Below, one piece after another: positions 30,105 to 36,807 of a DNA stretch of 64,000 nucleotides. The position numbers were made by a program, and so were the translations under genes. Under the pieces are notes generated by a model. The model was not told the DNA's origin, ran no database searches, and saw nothing but the letters and a program-made list of their open reading frames with translations. Each line of letters opens with the position of its first letter. The first letter of the stretch is position 1. The stretch covers positions 1 through 64,000 of the forward strand of contig CAIJPN010000069.1 of NCBI GenBank assembly GCA_903822545.1. Direction: 5' to 3'. The stretch comes from an uncultured Anaerolineae bacterium. GTDB lineage: Bacteria; Chloroflexota; Anaerolineae; Anaerolineales; Villigracilaceae.

Positions 30105-30133
30105 TTGACAAAACCACGCGCATCCTGTACGCT
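30105..30133 (+). promoter_or_regulatory. Promoter of the helicase gene (leaderless arrangement)
   Basis: A perfect TTGACA (30105-30110), 17 nt, then a weak TACGCT (30128-30133) whose end is 6 nt before ATG 30140. Transcription would start at the start codon. Confidence 0.55.
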
Positions 30134-30139
30134 TGACTC

Positions 30140-32242
30140 ATGTTGAGCGAAAACCAACTTCACGTTATCGAATCCCCTGTTAACTCAAAAATCTTCCTGT
30201 CCGGCCCGGCGGGCTGCGGAAAAACCAGCGCAGGCGTTGAACGTATGCGCGCCCTGCTCAAAGCGGGTGTGCCCGGCGAATCGATCCTGATGCTGACGCC
30301 GCAGCGCACGCTGCAGGAACCATACATAAGCCTGCTCAACAGCCCAGAGCGCGGCGCAGGCGGCGACGCGACCCCCGCCACCCTGGGAGGCATTGCACGG
30401 CGCATGGTCGATCTTTTCTGGCCATTGTGTGCCGAAGCCGCCGGTTTTGCCCACCCCGACCAACCACCAGTTTTCCTGACGCTCGAAACCGCCCAATACT
30501 ACATGGCGCACATCGTCCGCCCGCTGCTGGATGAGGGCTATTTCGAATCGGTCACCATCGAGCGCAACCGGCTGTACAGCCAAATCATCGACAACCTGAA
30601 CAAAGCCGCCATCGTCGGCTTCCCACACACCGACATCGGCTCCCGGCTCGATGCAGCCTACTTCGGCGAACCAGCCCAGCGCCGCGTCTACGCCGATGCC
30701 CAGGACTGCGCCAACCGTTTCCGCGCCCACTGCCTGCAAAACAACCTGCTCGATTTTTCGCTCCAGCTCGAAGTTTTCTGGACGCACCTGTGGCCCGACC
30801 CGGTCGTGCGCCAGTACCTGCGCCGCAGCTACCGCCATCTCATCTACGACAACATCGAAGAAGACGGCGCACGCGCCCACGACCTAATACGCGAATGGCT
30901 GTCCGATTTCGACTCAGCGCTGCTGATCTTCGACGAGGGCGGCGGCTACCGGCGATTCCTCGGCGCAGACATGGATACCGGCTGGGCGCTGCGCGAACTG
31001 TGTGATGAACACATCACGCTCAACGAAAGTTTTGTCATCTCAGCAGGAATTTCCAGGTTGAATTCCGCTCTACAGGCTGTTCTCCTGCCCGAAAAAACTG
31101 CATCCGTCCGCCCTGAAGCTGACTCCAACGAAAACTGGCTGGATGCCACCCTAAAAATCATCCAGACCCGTTTCTACCCAGAGCTTCTGGATTCTATCGC
31201 CACTGAGACACGCCGCCTGCTGAATGAGGGCCTTGCCCCTGCCGAAATCGTCATCCTCGCCCCCTACCTGTCAGACGCGCTGCGCTTCTCACTGATGAAC
31301 CGGCTGGAAGCCCGGGGCATTCCCACCCGCTCGCACCGTCCTTCGCGCTCTCTCCACGACGAACCCGCCAGCCGCACACTGCTCACCCTGGCCGCGCTTG
31401 CCCACCCAACCTGGAAAATCATCCCACCCAAATTTGATGTAGCCTACGCCTTCATGCAGTCCATCGAAGGCCTCGACCTCGTCCGCGCCCAGCTGCTGAC
31501 CGAAATTGTTTACCGTCCGCGTGATTTCAGCCTGGGTTCTTTTGAGAATCTCCAGAGCGCGGCCCAGGAACGCATCACCTACAGCCTGGGCAGCCGCTAC
31601 GAAACACTGCGCACCTGGCTGAACGAATATCGCGCCACCGAGCCACTGCCGCTCGATCACTTCCTGCGCAAACTCTTTGGCGAGGTACTCTCCCAACCCA
31701 GATTCGGCTTCCATAGCAATTTTGACTCCGTCAGGGTGGCGTCCAGCCTGGTTGAATCGGTCAAAAAGTTCCGGCTGAATCTGGCCGAGCAGGAAAATGC
31801 CCCAGATTTGGGCAAAGAATACATTTCCATGTTAGAAGATGGCGTAATTGCCGCTCAATACCTCACCGGTTGGCAAGAAAACCCAAATTCAGTGCTGGTG
31901 GCCCCGGCAACCACCTTCCTGATGATGAACCGCCCCGTAACGGCGCAGTTCTGGCTGGATGCGGGCGCCAGCGGCTGGTATGAACGCCTGGCCCAACCGC
32001 TCACCCATCCCTATGTGCTCTCCCGTGGCTGGGACGCATCCTCCGGCCGCACCTGGTCCGACGCTGACGATGTTGCCGCCAACCGCGATGCCCTGGCGCG
32101 CCTCGTCACCGGGCTGCTGCGACGCTGCCGCCAGCGCATCTACCTCGGCCTGCCCGAACTGGGTGAAAGCGGCTACGAACAGCGCGGAGACTTGCTCAAA
32201 GCCTTCAACCAGGCCCTGATGGCAGAGTCTAATAACACCTGA
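30140..32242 (+). CDS. UvrD/AddB-like superfamily 1 helicase-type ATPase (700 aa)
   Basis: Walker A is GPAGCGKTS (about 22-30) in a motif I context typical of UvrD/Rep/AddB. LMLTPQRTLQEPY is the motif Ia region, and YRHLIYDNIEEDGARAHDLI is the Walker B (motif II) region, with Asp-Asn-Ile-Glu-Glu in place of the usual DEFQD. Later LNESFVISAGI and a C-terminal RRCRQRIYLGL strand match the helicase 2A end. Classical motif V/VI arginines (VALTRA) are not obvious, as in AddB where helicase activity is lost. There is no nuclease domain in this chain. A separate Fe-S nuclease gene lies 1.46 kb downstream, suggesting a split AddB-like repair enzyme. It starts without a Shine-Dalgarno and is probably leaderless. 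Confidence 0.8.
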   Translation: MLSENQLHVIESPVNSKIFLSGPAGCGKTSAGVERMRALLKAGVPGESILMLTPQRTLQEPYISLLNSPERGAGGDATPATLGGIARRMVDLFWPLCAEAAGFAHPDQPPVFLTLETAQYYMAHIVRPLLDEGYFESVTIERNRLYSQIIDNLNKAAIVGFPHTDIGSRLDAAYFGEPAQRRVYADAQDCANRFRAHCLQNNLLDFSLQLEVFWTHLWPDPVVRQYLRRSYRHLIYDNIEEDGARAHDLIREWLSDFDSALLIFDEGGGYRRFLGADMDTGWALRELCDEHITLNESFVISAGISRLNSALQAVLLPEKTASVRPEADSNENWLDATLKIIQTRFYPELLDSIATETRRLLNEGLAPAEIVILAPYLSDALRFSLMNRLEARGIPTRSHRPSRSLHDEPASRTLLTLAALAHPTWKIIPPKFDVAYAFMQSIEGLDLVRAQLLTEIVYRPRDFSLGSFENLQSAAQERITYSLGSRYETLRTWLNEYRATEPLPLDHFLRKLFGEVLSQPRFGFHSNFDSVRVASSLVESVKKFRLNLAEQENAPDLGKEYISMLEDGVIAAQYLTGWQENPNSVLVAPATTFLMMNRPVTAQFWLDAGASGWYERLAQPLTHPYVLSRGWDASSGRTWSDADDVAANRDALARLVTGLLRRCRQRIYLGLPELGESGYEQRGDLLKAFNQALMAESNNT

Positions 32243-32342
32243 AGCCTAAATTGGGCAAAAGTTGTCATACAACTACCGACATCCCTGATTGACTCATTCT
32301 CTCCGATGTAATAGACGATTAATCATTCATTGGCCCATCTGA

Positions 32343-33083
32343 ATGAAAAAAATTATCACCACCTTCCTTTTTTTTGCTATTTTGATTTTATCCGGCTGCC
32401 AGAATAGCCAGTTTATTATCATCCTGACCCCCACACTGGAAATTCCGTCCCCCGCATGTGAATGGCCCTGCACCAAAGAAGATCGCCAAACCGCCCAGGC
32501 AATGCGCGCCACCATCGAAGCATCTGCCACACTGACAATCCCACCCACCATCCCCACCGATACACCAACCCATCCGCCAATCACCCCCCTGCCGCCATCC
32601 AACACCCCTCCCGCCGGGAACACCTACACCCTTATGCCCGGCGACCTGGGCTGGGGCAGCGTCTATGGCACCGTGACCGACGAAACCAGCGGATTACCCA
32701 TCTCGGGCGCAGCCATCACCTGTGAGCATCATTCCTACACATCCCCAACCCTGTGCACAGGCATCACCTGGACAAACGACAGCGGGATTTTCGCCTTCGT
32801 CCCGGTATTCTTCCACGATACCGACCGCATTATCATCCGTGTGGAAGTGCCGGGTTACCAAAACGGGATATTCTGGCAAGATTCATTTACCTTTGCCGCG
32901 CTCAAAGCCGACATTTCACTTAAAAAACTACCCACCCCCAACCCCAACGCATCCCCCACATTCTCCCCGGTCTGCACGGCCCCAGTTTGCCCCGCCGGGC
33001 AAGGACGCCTGGCCTGTGGACTTCCCGAAGGCTGCCCCGGTGGCTGCGGCACCATCTGCGCCACACTGACACCCACACCATAG
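32343..33083 (+). CDS. Secreted lipoprotein with a carboxypeptidase-regulatory-like domain (246 aa)
   Basis: A lipoprotein signal peptide with lipobox LSGC (Cys19) is followed by a Thr/Pro-rich linker (about 60-95). A beta-sandwich like CarboxypepD_reg follows (about 103-195: GSVYGTVTDETSGLPISGAAITC, TNDSGIFAFVP, VEVPGYQ). The tail is Pro-rich and Cys-rich (eight Cys between about 213 and 241), probably disulphide-bonded outside the cell. Its function is unknown; such domains serve as adhesion or assembly modules on surface proteins. No Shine-Dalgarno is apparent. It lies between the helicase and nuclease genes and ends at a bidirectional terminator. Confidence 0.8.
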   Translation: MKKIITTFLFFAILILSGCQNSQFIIILTPTLEIPSPACEWPCTKEDRQTAQAMRATIEASATLTIPPTIPTDTPTHPPITPLPPSNTPPAGNTYTLMPGDLGWGSVYGTVTDETSGLPISGAAITCEHHSYTSPTLCTGITWTNDSGIFAFVPVFFHDTDRIIIRVEVPGYQNGIFWQDSFTFAALKADISLKKLPTPNPNASPTFSPVCTAPVCPAGQGRLACGLPEGCPGGCGTICATLTPTP

Positions 33084-33114
33084 CCCCAGCGATTGACACA
33101 ATCCCCCCAAAAAA

Positions 33115-33150
33115 ACAAAAAACTCGGAGAATTCACCCCGAGTTTTTTGT
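33115..33150. terminator. Bidirectional intrinsic terminator
   Basis: A 13-bp perfect stem (33115-33127 with 33138-33150), 10-nt loop, with A6 and T6 at the outer ends. It serves the lipoprotein gene (plus) and the frameshifted gene (minus) that converge here. Confidence 0.9.
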
Positions 33151-33170
33151 TTCCAAATAACTGCCAGCAA

Positions 33171-33583
33171 CTACGGTGCAACCACATTTACCGAGAATTC
33201 AAACTGCTGCGAAACGGTATATCCACCCGGGTAGCGCACACCCACCACCACAAGCGCAATATCGGTAGCAGGCTGCTTATCCGGGCGGCTAACCAGCAGC
33301 GACTTGGCAGTAAACATCACCGTAAGTGTGGCACTCGTCCCAGCCCCAGCCGCTCGCAACCACCCCCCGCCCCAGGAAAGGGTCTGAAGGCATTGCAATC
33401 ACCGAAGTAAACGGAACATTACTGCTAACAGCCACAACCACCGGATAGCTTTCGCCGATATTCATCGTCGCTGGCAGCCCACTGACAACAGCGATGGTTG
33501 TCACAGGCAGTGGCGCAGCATCGCTCAATCCCAACACCAGCACAATTTGCCAGCACCAACATTCCAACAACTCTCTTGCTCAT
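33171..33583 (-). pseudogene. Frameshifted small secreted protein gene
   Basis: The minus-strand ATG at 33583 has a good AAGGAG and begins a signal peptide (MSKRVVGMLVLA). The sensible continuation (IVLVLGLSDAAPLPVTT through PFLGRGVVA) is in the +1 frame from about 33548. It changes frame again near 33345 into AGAGTSATLTVMFTAKS, which runs to the stop at 33171 (FEFSVNVVAP). One extra base at each point would explain both shifts. Joined, the product is about 137 residues, an exported Ig-like or beta-rich domain. Either the gene is decaying or there are two sequence errors. I do not recognise the family. Confidence 0.7.
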
Positions 33584-33693
33584 AAAATCTCCTTGAATAG
33601 CTCGATGTGAATAAGACTATTCTACGCCAAATACTACAATTTAATTCTAAAGAATTTCTGTATAGCCAAACAACCAGCCCAGACAGATTGACG

Positions 33694-33699
33694 TATAAT
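33694..33699 (+). promoter_or_regulatory. -10 element of the nuclease-recJ operon (leaderless arrangement)
   Basis: TATAAT ends 6 nt before ATG 33706, so the transcript should begin at the start codon. No strong -35 is seen at the expected distance. Confidence 0.55.
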
Positions 33700-33705
33700 C
33701 TGATT

Positions 33706-34515
33706 ATGCCCCTGCCCGTCCCCTTCACCTTCTCCCAGGCCAGCCTGCAAGACCATCAAGACTGCCCCCGGCGCTTCCAACTGCGTTACATCGAGCGACT
33801 GAGCTACCCGGCCATCGAAAGCGAGCCCACGCTCGAAAACGAACGCCACCAGCAGGAAGGCGAAACCTTCCACCGGCTCATCCAGCAATACTTACTTGGG
33901 ATTCCAGCCGAAAAAGTGAGCAAACTCGCCAACAGCACCAACTTGGAACGCTGGTGGATGAACTTTCTCGCCAGCTTCAACTTTGACCGTCAAACCGACC
34001 TGCTCTACCCCGAAATGACCCTATCCGCCCCGCTGGCTGGCTCCCGTTTAATGGCCAAATACGACCTGGTGACAGGCAGCCCCGAGAATGGCTTCACCAT
34101 CTACGACTGGAAAACCTACCGCAAACGCCCCCGCAACGAATTCCTGGTCACCCGCCTGCAAACGCGCGTCTACCGCGCCCTGCTGGCCCGCGCCGGAGCA
34201 CACCTTAACAGTGGCCAGCCCATCACCCCCGAACGCATCGAAATGATCTACTGGTTTGCCGATTTCCCCAACGAACCAGCGCGCTTCCGCTACGATCCAT
34301 CCCAAGACAAACGCGACTGGGACAGCCTGGAAAAAACCGCAAAAGAAATCACCGCCCAGGCCAGCTTCCCACCCACCGACGAAACACGTCAGTGCGCCTA
34401 CTGCACCTACCGCTCCTACTGTGACCGCGGCATCCGCGCCGGGGGTGGCGATACCATCGAAAGCGAACTGACACTGGACATCACGCTCGAACAGGTGCCG
34501 GAAATAGAGCTGTAA
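33706..34515 (+). CDS. Fe-S cluster PD-(D/E)XK nuclease, AddB/RecB/Cas4-like (269 aa)
   Basis: An exonuclease-type domain of the PDDEXK_1 family. The Fe-S Cys set is Cys20 (HQDCPRRFQLRY) and Cys230, Cys233, Cys239 (CAYCTYRSYC), the C...CxxCx5C arrangement of AddB and Cas4. The nuclease core has the His in GETFHRLIQQ, Asp in MAKYDLVTGS, DWK in IYDWKTYRK and the QxxxY-type motif LQTRVYRALL. Such domains degrade DNA ends during recombinational repair. It probably works with the helicase-like protein encoded at 30140-32242. Start ATG 33706 is chosen because the family similarity starts there and a TATAAT lies 6 nt upstream; an in-frame ATG at 33607 lies upstream of that promoter. recJ follows after 12 nt. 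Confidence 0.88.
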   Translation: MPLPVPFTFSQASLQDHQDCPRRFQLRYIERLSYPAIESEPTLENERHQQEGETFHRLIQQYLLGIPAEKVSKLANSTNLERWWMNFLASFNFDRQTDLLYPEMTLSAPLAGSRLMAKYDLVTGSPENGFTIYDWKTYRKRPRNEFLVTRLQTRVYRALLARAGAHLNSGQPITPERIEMIYWFADFPNEPARFRYDPSQDKRDWDSLEKTAKEITAQASFPPTDETRQCAYCTYRSYCDRGIRAGGGDTIESELTLDITLEQVPEIEL

Positions 34516-34527
34516 CCACAATCTTCC

Positions 34528-36807
34528 ATGCGCTGGATAGATACCCCCTCTCACCCTGATCCATCCCCGTTGCCTGACCTGCATCCTCTGGTCGGGCATA
34601 CTCTAATCCGGCGCGGAATCTTGACTCCTGCGGCTGCCAGGGCCTTCCTGAACCCCGACTTATACCAGCCCGCGCCAGCCTCCCAACTCCCAGGCATGGA
34701 TGCGGCGGCTGAAAGAGTGCTACGCGCCATCGCCGCCCGCGAACCCATCTGCATCTGGGGCGATTTTGATGTGGACGGGCAAACCGCCACCTCGCTGTTG
34801 GTGCAAACCCTGCAAGCCCTCGGCGCAGATGTGAGCTACTACATCCCGGTGCGCGCGCGCGAAACGCATGGCGTACACATCCCCAGCCTGGAAAAAATCA
34901 TCGCCAGCGGCACAAAACTGATCATCACCTGCGATACCGGCATCACCGCCCACGAAGCTGTCGATTACGCCAATTCGCGCGGCGTGGATGTGGTCATCAC
35001 CGACCACCACGATCTGGACGACAGACTGCCCAACGCTGTAGCCGCCACAAACCCCAAACTTTTACCACTCGATCATCCGCTCGCAAACCTACCCGGTGTA
35101 GGCGTAGCCTATAAACTCGCCGAGCTACTGATTGCATCGCACCAGCCCGCAACTTTCCTATCATCCAACCTGCTGGATTTGGTGGCCCTGGGCACGGTGG
35201 CCGACCTGGCGCTTTTGCACAACGACACACGCTATCTCGTCCAAAAAGGGCTGGAAGCGCTGCGCAAAACCGAACGGCTCGGCCTGAAAACCATCATGGA
35301 AATGGCCGAGATCAAACCGGAAAATATCACCGAAAACCACATCGGTTTTGCGTTTGGGCCGCGCCTGAACGCCCTGGGGCGGCTGGACGATGCCAACCCG
35401 GCGGTGGAACTGCTAACCACCAGCGATCCATCCCGTGCGCGAGTGCTGGTTACACAAATCGAGGGGCTGAATGCTCAGCGCAAACTGCTGTGCGACCAGG
35501 TGACACAGGCGGCCGAAGCCCAACTCAAGGCAGATCCGGCCCTGCTGGCCCAACCCATCATCATCCTGGGACATGAAACCTGGCCAGGCGGCGTGGTGGG
35601 CATCGTGGCTTCGCGGATTTCTGAACGCTACGGCAAACCAGCCATCCTGATGTCGCTTGGCGCGGATGGGATTGCGCGCGGTTCGGCCCGCTCTATCGAT
35701 GGGCTGCATATCACCGAAGCCATCAGCGCACAGAAAGATTTGCTGCGCAACTATGGCGGGCACCCCATGGCCGCCGGATTGGGGCTGGAACTGGAAAAGC
35801 TGCCCGAATTCCGCAAACGCATGGGCAAAACGGTTGAAAAGATGCTGACAGAAGCGCAGGTGGAAGAAGCCGTGCTCAACCTGGATGGCTGGATCAACCT
35901 GCCGGAAATCTCGCTGGAATTGGCCGGGCAGATTGAGCAACTGGCCCCTTTTGGGCCTGGAAACGAAAAACTCATATTGGCTACCCGCAACCTGACGCTT
36001 AAAAACGCATCCCCGGTGGGACGCGGGGCTGAGCATGTGCGTTTGACGGTGGCTGATTCAGATGGCAATACACAGACGGTGTTGTGGTGGGGTGGCGGGA
36101 GCGAGGAACTGCCAGCTGAGCAGTTTGACCTGGCGTACACCATCCGCAGCAATGACTATAAGGGGCAGAAACAGGTCACGGTGGAATTTGTAGACTTCCG
36201 GGCGGTGGAAGGCGAGAAGATAACGGTAAAAAGCAAAAGGCTTGAGATTGAAGATTTGCGCGGGGCGAGGGTGGAAAGTGGAAAGTGGGAAGCGGGAAGC
36301 GTGATGGTGTGGGCGGAGGGCGAGCACAAGAAGCGGGTGGATGGCAAAGGGAGATACGAACTATCAGCGGCGGAAACGCTGGTGGTGTGGACTGCGCCTG
36401 CGTCACCGGAAATCCTGCGGGCAGCACTGGAGCGAGTGAAACCGAAAAAAGTCATCCTGGTGGGAGAAAATCCAGGGCTGGATGATGCCAGGGCTTTTTT
36501 GGAGCGGCTGGCAGGGTTGGTGAAGTTTGTTATCAATAAGAAAAACGGGCTGACAAGCCTAACCGAGCTTGCAACGGCGCTGGCAGGACGCGAAACGGCG
36601 ATCAGATTGGGGGTAGAGTGGCTGGTGAAACGAGGGCAGGTGTCGGCGCGGTTTGAATCGGGCGGGGAGGTTGTTCTTCGCCTGGATCCTGCCGGGGTGG
36701 ATGAATCCGCATCCAGCCAGATTGAATCCCAAATTCGCAATATTTTGAGTGAGTGCGCGGCTTATCGCGATTATTTCATCAAAGCTGAAAAGGATGCGCT
36801 GTTATGA
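34528..36807 (+). CDS. recJ: Single-stranded-DNA-specific 5'-3' exonuclease RecJ (759 aa)
   Basis: RecJ resects 5' ends for the RecFOR pathway and in base excision and mismatch repair. Conserved DHH-family motifs are GDFDVDG (78-84), the ICDTGIT-like ITCDTGIT, and Asp159-His160-His161 in VVITDHHDLDD. The DHHA1 domain follows with YGGHPMAAGLGLE, then an OB-like domain (LTVADSDGNTQTVLWWGG). At 759 aa it is about 190 longer than E. coli RecJ. The extra C-terminal part contains a KVILVGENPGLDDARAFLE region and a helical end, an extension seen in several phyla. The stretch at about 36240-36330 is strongly purine-biased. It overlaps the thioesterase gene by ATGA and starts 12 nt after the nuclease gene. 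Confidence 0.95.
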   Translation: MRWIDTPSHPDPSPLPDLHPLVGHTLIRRGILTPAAARAFLNPDLYQPAPASQLPGMDAAAERVLRAIAAREPICIWGDFDVDGQTATSLLVQTLQALGADVSYYIPVRARETHGVHIPSLEKIIASGTKLIITCDTGITAHEAVDYANSRGVDVVITDHHDLDDRLPNAVAATNPKLLPLDHPLANLPGVGVAYKLAELLIASHQPATFLSSNLLDLVALGTVADLALLHNDTRYLVQKGLEALRKTERLGLKTIMEMAEIKPENITENHIGFAFGPRLNALGRLDDANPAVELLTTSDPSRARVLVTQIEGLNAQRKLLCDQVTQAAEAQLKADPALLAQPIIILGHETWPGGVVGIVASRISERYGKPAILMSLGADGIARGSARSIDGLHITEAISAQKDLLRNYGGHPMAAGLGLELEKLPEFRKRMGKTVEKMLTEAQVEEAVLNLDGWINLPEISLELAGQIEQLAPFGPGNEKLILATRNLTLKNASPVGRGAEHVRLTVADSDGNTQTVLWWGGGSEELPAEQFDLAYTIRSNDYKGQKQVTVEFVDFRAVEGEKITVKSKRLEIEDLRGARVESGKWEAGSVMVWAEGEHKKRVDGKGRYELSAAETLVVWTAPASPEILRAALERVKPKKVILVGENPGLDDARAFLERLAGLVKFVINKKNGLTSLTELATALAGRETAIRLGVEWLVKRGQVSARFESGGEVVLRLDPAGVDESASSQIESQIRNILSECAAYRDYFIKAEKDALL

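Follow-up and report, generated by a model that had tools for sequence, protein, structure and literature searches.

The two nucleases of AddAB divide the strands between them: that of AddA cleaves the 3'-terminated one and that of AddB the 5'-terminated one, until Chi, captured by the helicase-like domain of AddB, withholds the 3' strand from AddA cleavage; in RecBCD, RecB is the active 3'-5' motor and RecC, next to it, a helicase-like scanner that has been inactivated (PMC4824097). Both AdnA and AdnB combine motor and nuclease domains (PMC13309787), and AdnAB has been reported from Actinobacteria only, with RecBCD, AddAB, or AdnAB present in 88% of bacterial genomes in one survey (PMC6452273). 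Further, UvrD–Cas4-like fusions are described in restriction-modification or Dcm contexts, and operons of unfused UvrD and Cas4-like genes in several bacteria, mostly Clostridiales (PMC5704561). Here, a stretch of 64,000 nucleotides from an uncultured Anaerolineae bacterium of the Chloroflexota (assembly GCA_903822545.1, contig CAIJPN010000069.1, positions 1–64,000; hereafter the window) was found to encode a helicase-like protein (HEL) and a stand-alone iron-sulfur (Fe-S) nuclease (NUC) that, with a helicase encoded elsewhere in the genome (MOTOR), would probably constitute a three-polypeptide helicase-nuclease akin to AddAB and AdnAB. Working labels denote genomes (G), contigs (C), loci (L), and families (f); the genome of the window is G000 (5.53 Mb, 237 contigs), and the window is G000:C69:1-64000. 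The genes at the center of this analysis are:

30140..32242, plus strand: HEL, apparently inactivated UvrD/AddB-like helicase subunit (700 amino acids, aa; intact Walker A, Asn instead of Glu in Walker B, degenerate motif V/VI)
33706..34515, plus strand: NUC, stand-alone PD-(D/E)XK nuclease with a predicted Fe-S cluster (269 aa; resembles the C-terminal nuclease domain of AdnA/AddB)
34528..36807, plus strand: RecJ (759 aa; starts 12 nt 3' of NUC)

HEL, a lipoprotein-like gene, NUC, and recJ lie in that order, all on the plus strand, and the open reading frame (ORF) positions agree with the coordinates, sizes, and 1.46 kb spacing of the initial annotation (1463 bp from the HEL stop to the NUC ATG).

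Helicase-like protein, nuclease, and motor

HEL keeps a Walker A motif (GPAGCGKT) and has an altered motif II, D237-N238-x-E240-E241, where MOTOR has D-E-A-Q-D. Five residues (G27, K28, N238, E240, and E241) are invariant in 30/30 homologues, all of which lack the Walker B glutamate and carry N238 instead. The arginine-finger position, placed by the author through alignment of motif VI, is occupied by R (n = 13), H (n = 9), or Y (n = 4) among the 30 homologues, such that no finger is conserved. Pfam recognized only a marginal UvrD N-terminus in HEL (24.6 bits; cut-off, 23), a model matched by 29 of the 30 homologues at E ≤ 0.001, and no nuclease domain, all in keeping with the original description of a 700-aa protein with an AddB/UvrD-type Walker A, an altered motif II, and no nuclease. 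The Walker B DE and arginine finger that mark UvrD/REP helicases of superfamily 1A (SF1A) are thus absent from HEL. As Walker A is kept and both motif II and the arginine finger are altered, HEL looks able to bind ATP yet unable to act as a helicase; the N-terminal domain of AddB is likewise an inactivated SF1 fold (PMC4824097). The loss of catalytic motifs from HEL could also be expected of an ordinary leftover, with HEL a decaying UvrD paralogue, NUC a generic nuclease, and the two neighbors by chance; this is very improbable given that the Walker A G-K and >100 invariant columns of HEL are kept in 30/30 homologues, that the altered motif II is identical in all of them, and that six families have open HEL frames of at least ~700 aa. 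The AlphaFold model of HEL (predicted local distance difference test [pLDDT], 87.9; predicted template modelling score, 0.84) spans a complete UvrD-type fold, which could be superimposed on AdnB (Z 25.1; root-mean-square deviation [rmsd], 4.4; 620 residues aligned), AdnA (Z 22.2; rmsd, 5.0; 564 aligned), and AddB (Z 21.8; rmsd, 5.9; 601 aligned).

NUC exceeds the cut-off of PF12705 (PDDEXK_1) by a wide interval (101.6 bits; gathering threshold, 22; E = 8.7e-29) and is a PD-(D/E)XK nuclease with a predicted Fe-S cluster. The Fe-S pattern of AddB is C...CxxCx5C. The corresponding set in NUC, C20...C230-x2-C233-x5-C239, and the residues D120, D134, and K136 are invariant in 34/34 homologues, which bears out the earlier proposal that the 269-aa protein combines an AddB/Cas4-type cysteine set with the nuclease core. 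Curated Cas4 cut-offs were not reached (PF01930, 20.4 of 22.7 bits; TIGR00372, 21 of 65 bits). By predicted structure (pLDDT, 85.5), NUC is closest to residues 785–1039 of AdnA (Z 18.5; rmsd, 2.8; 222 aligned), followed by the Cas4-like ACE1 (Z 15.7) and residues 782–1137 of AddB (Z 15.5; rmsd, 3.7; 234 aligned), and is less near the RecB nuclease (Z about 11). The final 28 residues have pLDDT <50, and this predicted-disordered segment ends in EQIxEIEF or EQIxEIAF in most homologues, in EQVPEIEL in the window, and in DDVEEIEF in the Salinibacter plasmid homologue introduced below, a recurring sequence that is likely a docking peptide.

MOTOR is encoded on a different contig of the genome (C12, L125:5478-7826:-, 783 aa). 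In distant relatives from the same taxonomic order (L076, L078, L081, and L083), a gene of ~740–760 aa between HEL and NUC is MOTOR, and recJ follows NUC. MOTOR is an SF1A helicase, with motifs I–VI intact in 30/30 aligned sequences, and its profile and that of HEL match each other (E 8.4e-9). Pfam detected only helicase/ATPase domains, and no C-terminal AddA-type nuclease was found by Pfam or by alignment to AddA, which stops at residue 894 of 1167. A search of the window for ORFs of the MOTOR family returned none, as expected from the initial annotation, which had seen no AddA-type motor there. None of the other large UvrD ORFs of the genome (L002, L005, L006, L008, and L272) resembles AddA; we take L005 and L006 to be HelD-like and L008 to be a RecD2-like fragment. 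Two of these frames have unusual architectures in their own right. L002 (G000:C20) is a ~1500-aa frame with a UvrD helicase, presumably joined to leucine-rich repeats and a DUF559/Vsr-like stretch, and L272 (265–3063; G000:C190) encodes a 932-aa UvrD helicase with a C-terminal OST-HTH/LOTUS domain, an unusual combination.

Using AddA and AddB sequences drawn from the genomes of relatives, HEL 20–597 was aligned by profile to AddB 19–595 (hhalign E 6.5e-10; probability, 96.6), NUC 5–243 to AddB 763–1034 (E 1.7e-6; probability, 90.0), and MOTOR 3–728 to AddA 54–894 of 1167 (E 9.1e-31), an alignment that does not reach the nuclease region of AddA. Searches of PDB sequences with HEL and NUC (phmmer) gave chance matches only. 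Profiles and predicted folds together support a collinear tiling of AddB, and of AdnA, by HEL and NUC. The idea that the two parts of an AddB-like protein are here encoded by separate genes therefore stands in its collinearity with AddB and AdnA, and gives way in its picture of a motorless pair, as an AddA-like MOTOR belongs with them. No fused HEL–NUC was present among 80 GTDB loci, and in some relatives the two flank MOTOR in one cluster. A UvrD-PDDEXK_1 fusion from a family (f39) of another Chloroflexota class was weighed as a possible fused ancestor but rejected, since the helicase portion is nearer to MOTOR than to HEL and has intact UvrD domains. The fusion itself (L241 8507–11473, L242 8388–11339, and L246; 984–989 aa in L241 and L242) is a possible one-chain helicase-nuclease of that class, with neighbors that we take to be dnaA, dnaN, and recF.

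Distribution and gene order

The co-occurrence of the three genes was explored in 61 genomes (that of the window and 60 relatives; HEL at E ≤ 1e-9, MOTOR at E < 1e-79, counted by hand from tables) and in 400 Chloroflexota genomes. Among the 61, HEL was present in 43, NUC in 43, and MOTOR in 41; in the window's own family, HEL occurred in 35/37 genomes and NUC in 36/37. Three genomes had HEL without MOTOR (G012, G021, and G024) and one had MOTOR without HEL (G022), with a piece of HEL or MOTOR at a contig end in all of these except G021. Of the 400 Chloroflexota genomes, 45 had strong HEL matches, exactly those 45 had MOTOR, and all belonged to the window's class; at the cut-offs used, NUC was found in 41 of the 45 and in 0/355 of the others. 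In three families (f6, G041/G054; f10, G045/G058; f19, G187/G429), HEL and MOTOR were both present in one sampled genome and both missing from another, therefore indicating joint presence or absence at several points of the tree. Weak HEL matches outside the window's class were dropped by E-value in 13/58 genomes (E 1e-5 to 1e-9) and in 2/45 (E ~1e-4), and 9 of the 13 dropped loci by hidden Markov models (HMMs), and 3 by Pfam, look like UvrD-type proteins. Mirror-tree correlations (0.82–0.89; 31 genomes) were not used as evidence, since common descent alone yields such values.

Gene order links the three further. The order HEL-MOTOR-NUC-recJ recurs in the four distant relatives named above, and HEL-MOTOR-NUC are contiguous in five loci from other families (L252, L254, L257, L258, and L259). 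MOTOR lay in the flank of 29/38 fetched HEL loci, on the same strand in 29/29 and downstream in 28, and in 44 of 80 GTDB loci (the best 80 of 310 confirmed, the majority in assemblies that bear the label Anaerolineales/Anaerolineae or Chloroflexi), again on the strand of HEL in 44/44. Three near-complete genomes have the trio far apart, with all members retained (G419, G385, and G164). NUC genes that no longer sit with HEL and MOTOR often still adjoin RecJ, an arrangement that would also suit separate action, with HEL a regulatory ATP-binder (perhaps of MOTOR alone), NUC a Cas4-like partner of RecJ, and the cluster inherited without a complex. The weak scores of NUC with Cas4 models and the lack of a detected NUC in some f16 genomes with HEL and MOTOR point the same way. 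We hold separate action to be quite unlikely given the joint presence and absence within f6, f10, and f19, the collinearity of HEL and NUC with AddB and AdnA, and the occurrence of the same cluster in a second phylum.

That cluster emerged from coverage of other phyla that comprised plasmids, phages, viral contigs, and a scan of genome contigs. A tblastn search of HEL against 72,556 plasmids returned a single record, the Salinibacter ruber M8 plasmid pSR56 (Rhodothermota; coverage, 96%; identity, 43.0%), in which HEL, an ‘ATP-dependent helicase’, a ‘PD-(D/E)XK nuclease family protein’, and recJ follow one another on one strand. The plasmid HEL, MOTOR, NUC, and RecJ are 43, 46, 43, and 41% identical to the query proteins, and the profile HMM scores are 822 (HEL), 308 (NUC), and 925 bits (MOTOR). 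The four genes have moved or stayed together across phyla, and RecJ is tied to the trio because the plasmid cluster keeps all four. Directly upstream of the plasmid cluster, and on its strand, are genes for a small hypothetical protein and for an XRE regulator that possibly controls the cluster (L290 7008–8877). A plasmid location beside an XRE regulator is also what might be seen if the trio were one complex with an accessory function, such as anti-phage or plasmid-directed degradation, comparable to UvrD–Cas4 fusions, which occur in defense loci (PMC5704561). Further in line with an accessory role are the coexistence of AddAB in eight relatives and the scores of MOTOR with many GajB (Gabija) profiles from PADLOC. 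Assignment of MOTOR to GajB was rejected, as those matches reflect the common UvrD fold. With no match in 50,697 phage records or in viral contigs, and with the trio near-universal in the window's own family, kept even where its genes are dispersed, and clustered with recJ, an accessory role appears unlikely.

A search of G000 with PF12705 returned only NUC and a 245-aa frame, and no AddA, AddB, RecB-type nuclease protein, or other long PDDEXK_1 protein was found by it; in relatives, the same search does recover AddB and AddA as long proteins. The complete AddAB or RecBCD that would have spoken against the initial annotation was accordingly not found elsewhere in the genome by PF12705. The trio is not a plain replacement of AddAB, since the two coexist in some relatives; it looks like a system independent of AddAB and, in G000, the sole one of its kind found.

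Proposed mechanism and layout of the locus

Several observations weigh against a three-part machine. By Z score, the top fold matches of HEL are UvrD/PcrA (up to Z 30.0) and not AddB; the N-terminal half of the HEL profile matches a UvrD-PDDEXK fusion as well as HEL does AddB (E 4.5e-12), and the NUC profile matches the nuclease of that fusion slightly better (E 3e-8) than that of AddB. NUC is missing at E ≤ 1e-10 in 4/45 trio genomes, all from family f16 (G203, G311, G353, and G373), of which G203, G353, and G373 may use another nuclease. MOTOR has been relocated away from HEL and NUC in the genome of the window, and RecJ lies in the fetched flank of just 15/42 NUC loci. Of the 43 genomes with strong HEL, 8 also encode classic AddAB, recognized by long ORFs for both subunits (G007, G008, G016, G029, G030, G034, G045, and G056), and of the other 18/61 genomes, one has an AddAB pair (G046), two have possible parts (G038 and G059), and most show neither. 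Physical interaction of HEL, NUC, and MOTOR is something that we infer.

A three-polypeptide helicase-nuclease remains the preferred reading, one in which motifs, predicted folds, collinearity, gene order, co-occurrence, and the second-phylum cluster are taken to reflect a complex, with a polarity, choice of strand, and role in break repair as follows. MOTOR would move 3' to 5' and open up DNA from a broken end, HEL would be the partner that does not translocate, guiding and perhaps scanning the 3' strand like the AddB N-terminal domain, and NUC would cleave the 5'-terminated strand, as the counterpart of the AddB/AdnA nuclease; RecJ could extend degradation of the 5' strand. Because a counterpart of the AddA-type (3'-strand) nuclease is absent, the machine would supply RecA with 3' overhangs straight away and need no switch at Chi. 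More tentatively, and with considerable doubt, the trio may represent a fourth bacterial class of end resection beside RecBCD, AddAB, and AdnAB, in which the motor, an inactive scanner or clamp, and a 5'-strand Fe-S nuclease are separate, RecJ is co-encoded, a Chi switch is lacking, function is nearer to that of eukaryotic BLM-DNA2 than to that of AddAB, the genes are mobile between phyla as one cluster, and the NUC tail docks NUC on its partners.

The remaining features of the locus are:

32343..33083, plus strand: lipoprotein-like gene (246 aa), between HEL and NUC
30105..30133, plus strand: candidate HEL promoter, TTGACA-17-TACGCT (by eye, consensus match only)
33694..33699, plus strand: candidate NUC -10 box, TATAAT (by eye, consensus match only)

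The lipoprotein-like gene occupies the position that MOTOR has in relatives and is probably unrelated to the system; the opposing broken gene of the initial annotation amounts to a minus-strand ORF of 93 aa (33289–33570) between it and NUC. Leaderless mRNAs are plausible for both HEL and NUC, with candidate promoter boxes that are consistent in position (TTGACA-17 nt-TACGCT ends 6 nt 5' of the HEL ATG, and TATAAT lies 6 nt 5' of the NUC ATG) and a Shine-Dalgarno-like core in 2/39 HEL and 11/42 NUC upstream regions (raw counts, without a chance level). An alternative GTG start at 33607 would lengthen NUC from 269 to 302 aa. RecJ continues for ~200 residues past its OB domain, which ends at 554, and this extra part can be aligned to RecJ of the plasmid as well.

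In the open-access literature, no paper on the three-gene form was found by title or abstract start, which does not prove it unpublished. A machine of this kind could touch on break resection in genomes outside the 88% surveyed and would give a name to a set of core genes that lack annotation in many Anaerolineae. With a single nuclease, it would bear on whether Chi control is tied to having two, and with separate subunits, each function could be removed or added in vitro.

Comparison with described systems

The trio shares with AddAB of the Bacillus subtilis type one SF1A motor, one apparently inactivated helicase-like part with an N-terminal Walker A, and one Fe-S RecB-type nuclease, with the Fe-S ligand set and nuclease catalytic residues predicted in NUC and intact motor motifs in MOTOR. 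It differs in having three polypeptides instead of two, in the lack of an AddA-type (3'-strand) nuclease, and in the size of MOTOR (~780 aa compared to ~1150 aa for AddA). Classic AddAB also occurs in these families, sporadically and as a system of its own. The trio is filed beside AddAB and AdnAB, and not as a member of AddAB, because neither a nuclease on the motor nor a single-chain AddB was found when tested. Likeness to AdnAB of mycobacteria lies in the NUC fold, nearest to the AdnA nuclease, and in HEL, which spans the motor domains of AdnA and AdnB; unlike the two AdnAB subunits, each with motor and nuclease, the trio is three genes with one nuclease. With RecBCD it has in common a helicase-like scanner, predicted to be inactivated, beside a motor predicted to be active, whereas its Fe-S nuclease is a separate subunit and the cluster holds no RecD-like gene. 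UvrD–Cas4-like (pfam12705) fusions and operons likewise pair an SF1 helicase with a Cas4-like Fe-S nuclease, but the passages of their description that concern these systems mention no pseudo-helicase subunit (PMC5704561), the part that HEL would play here.

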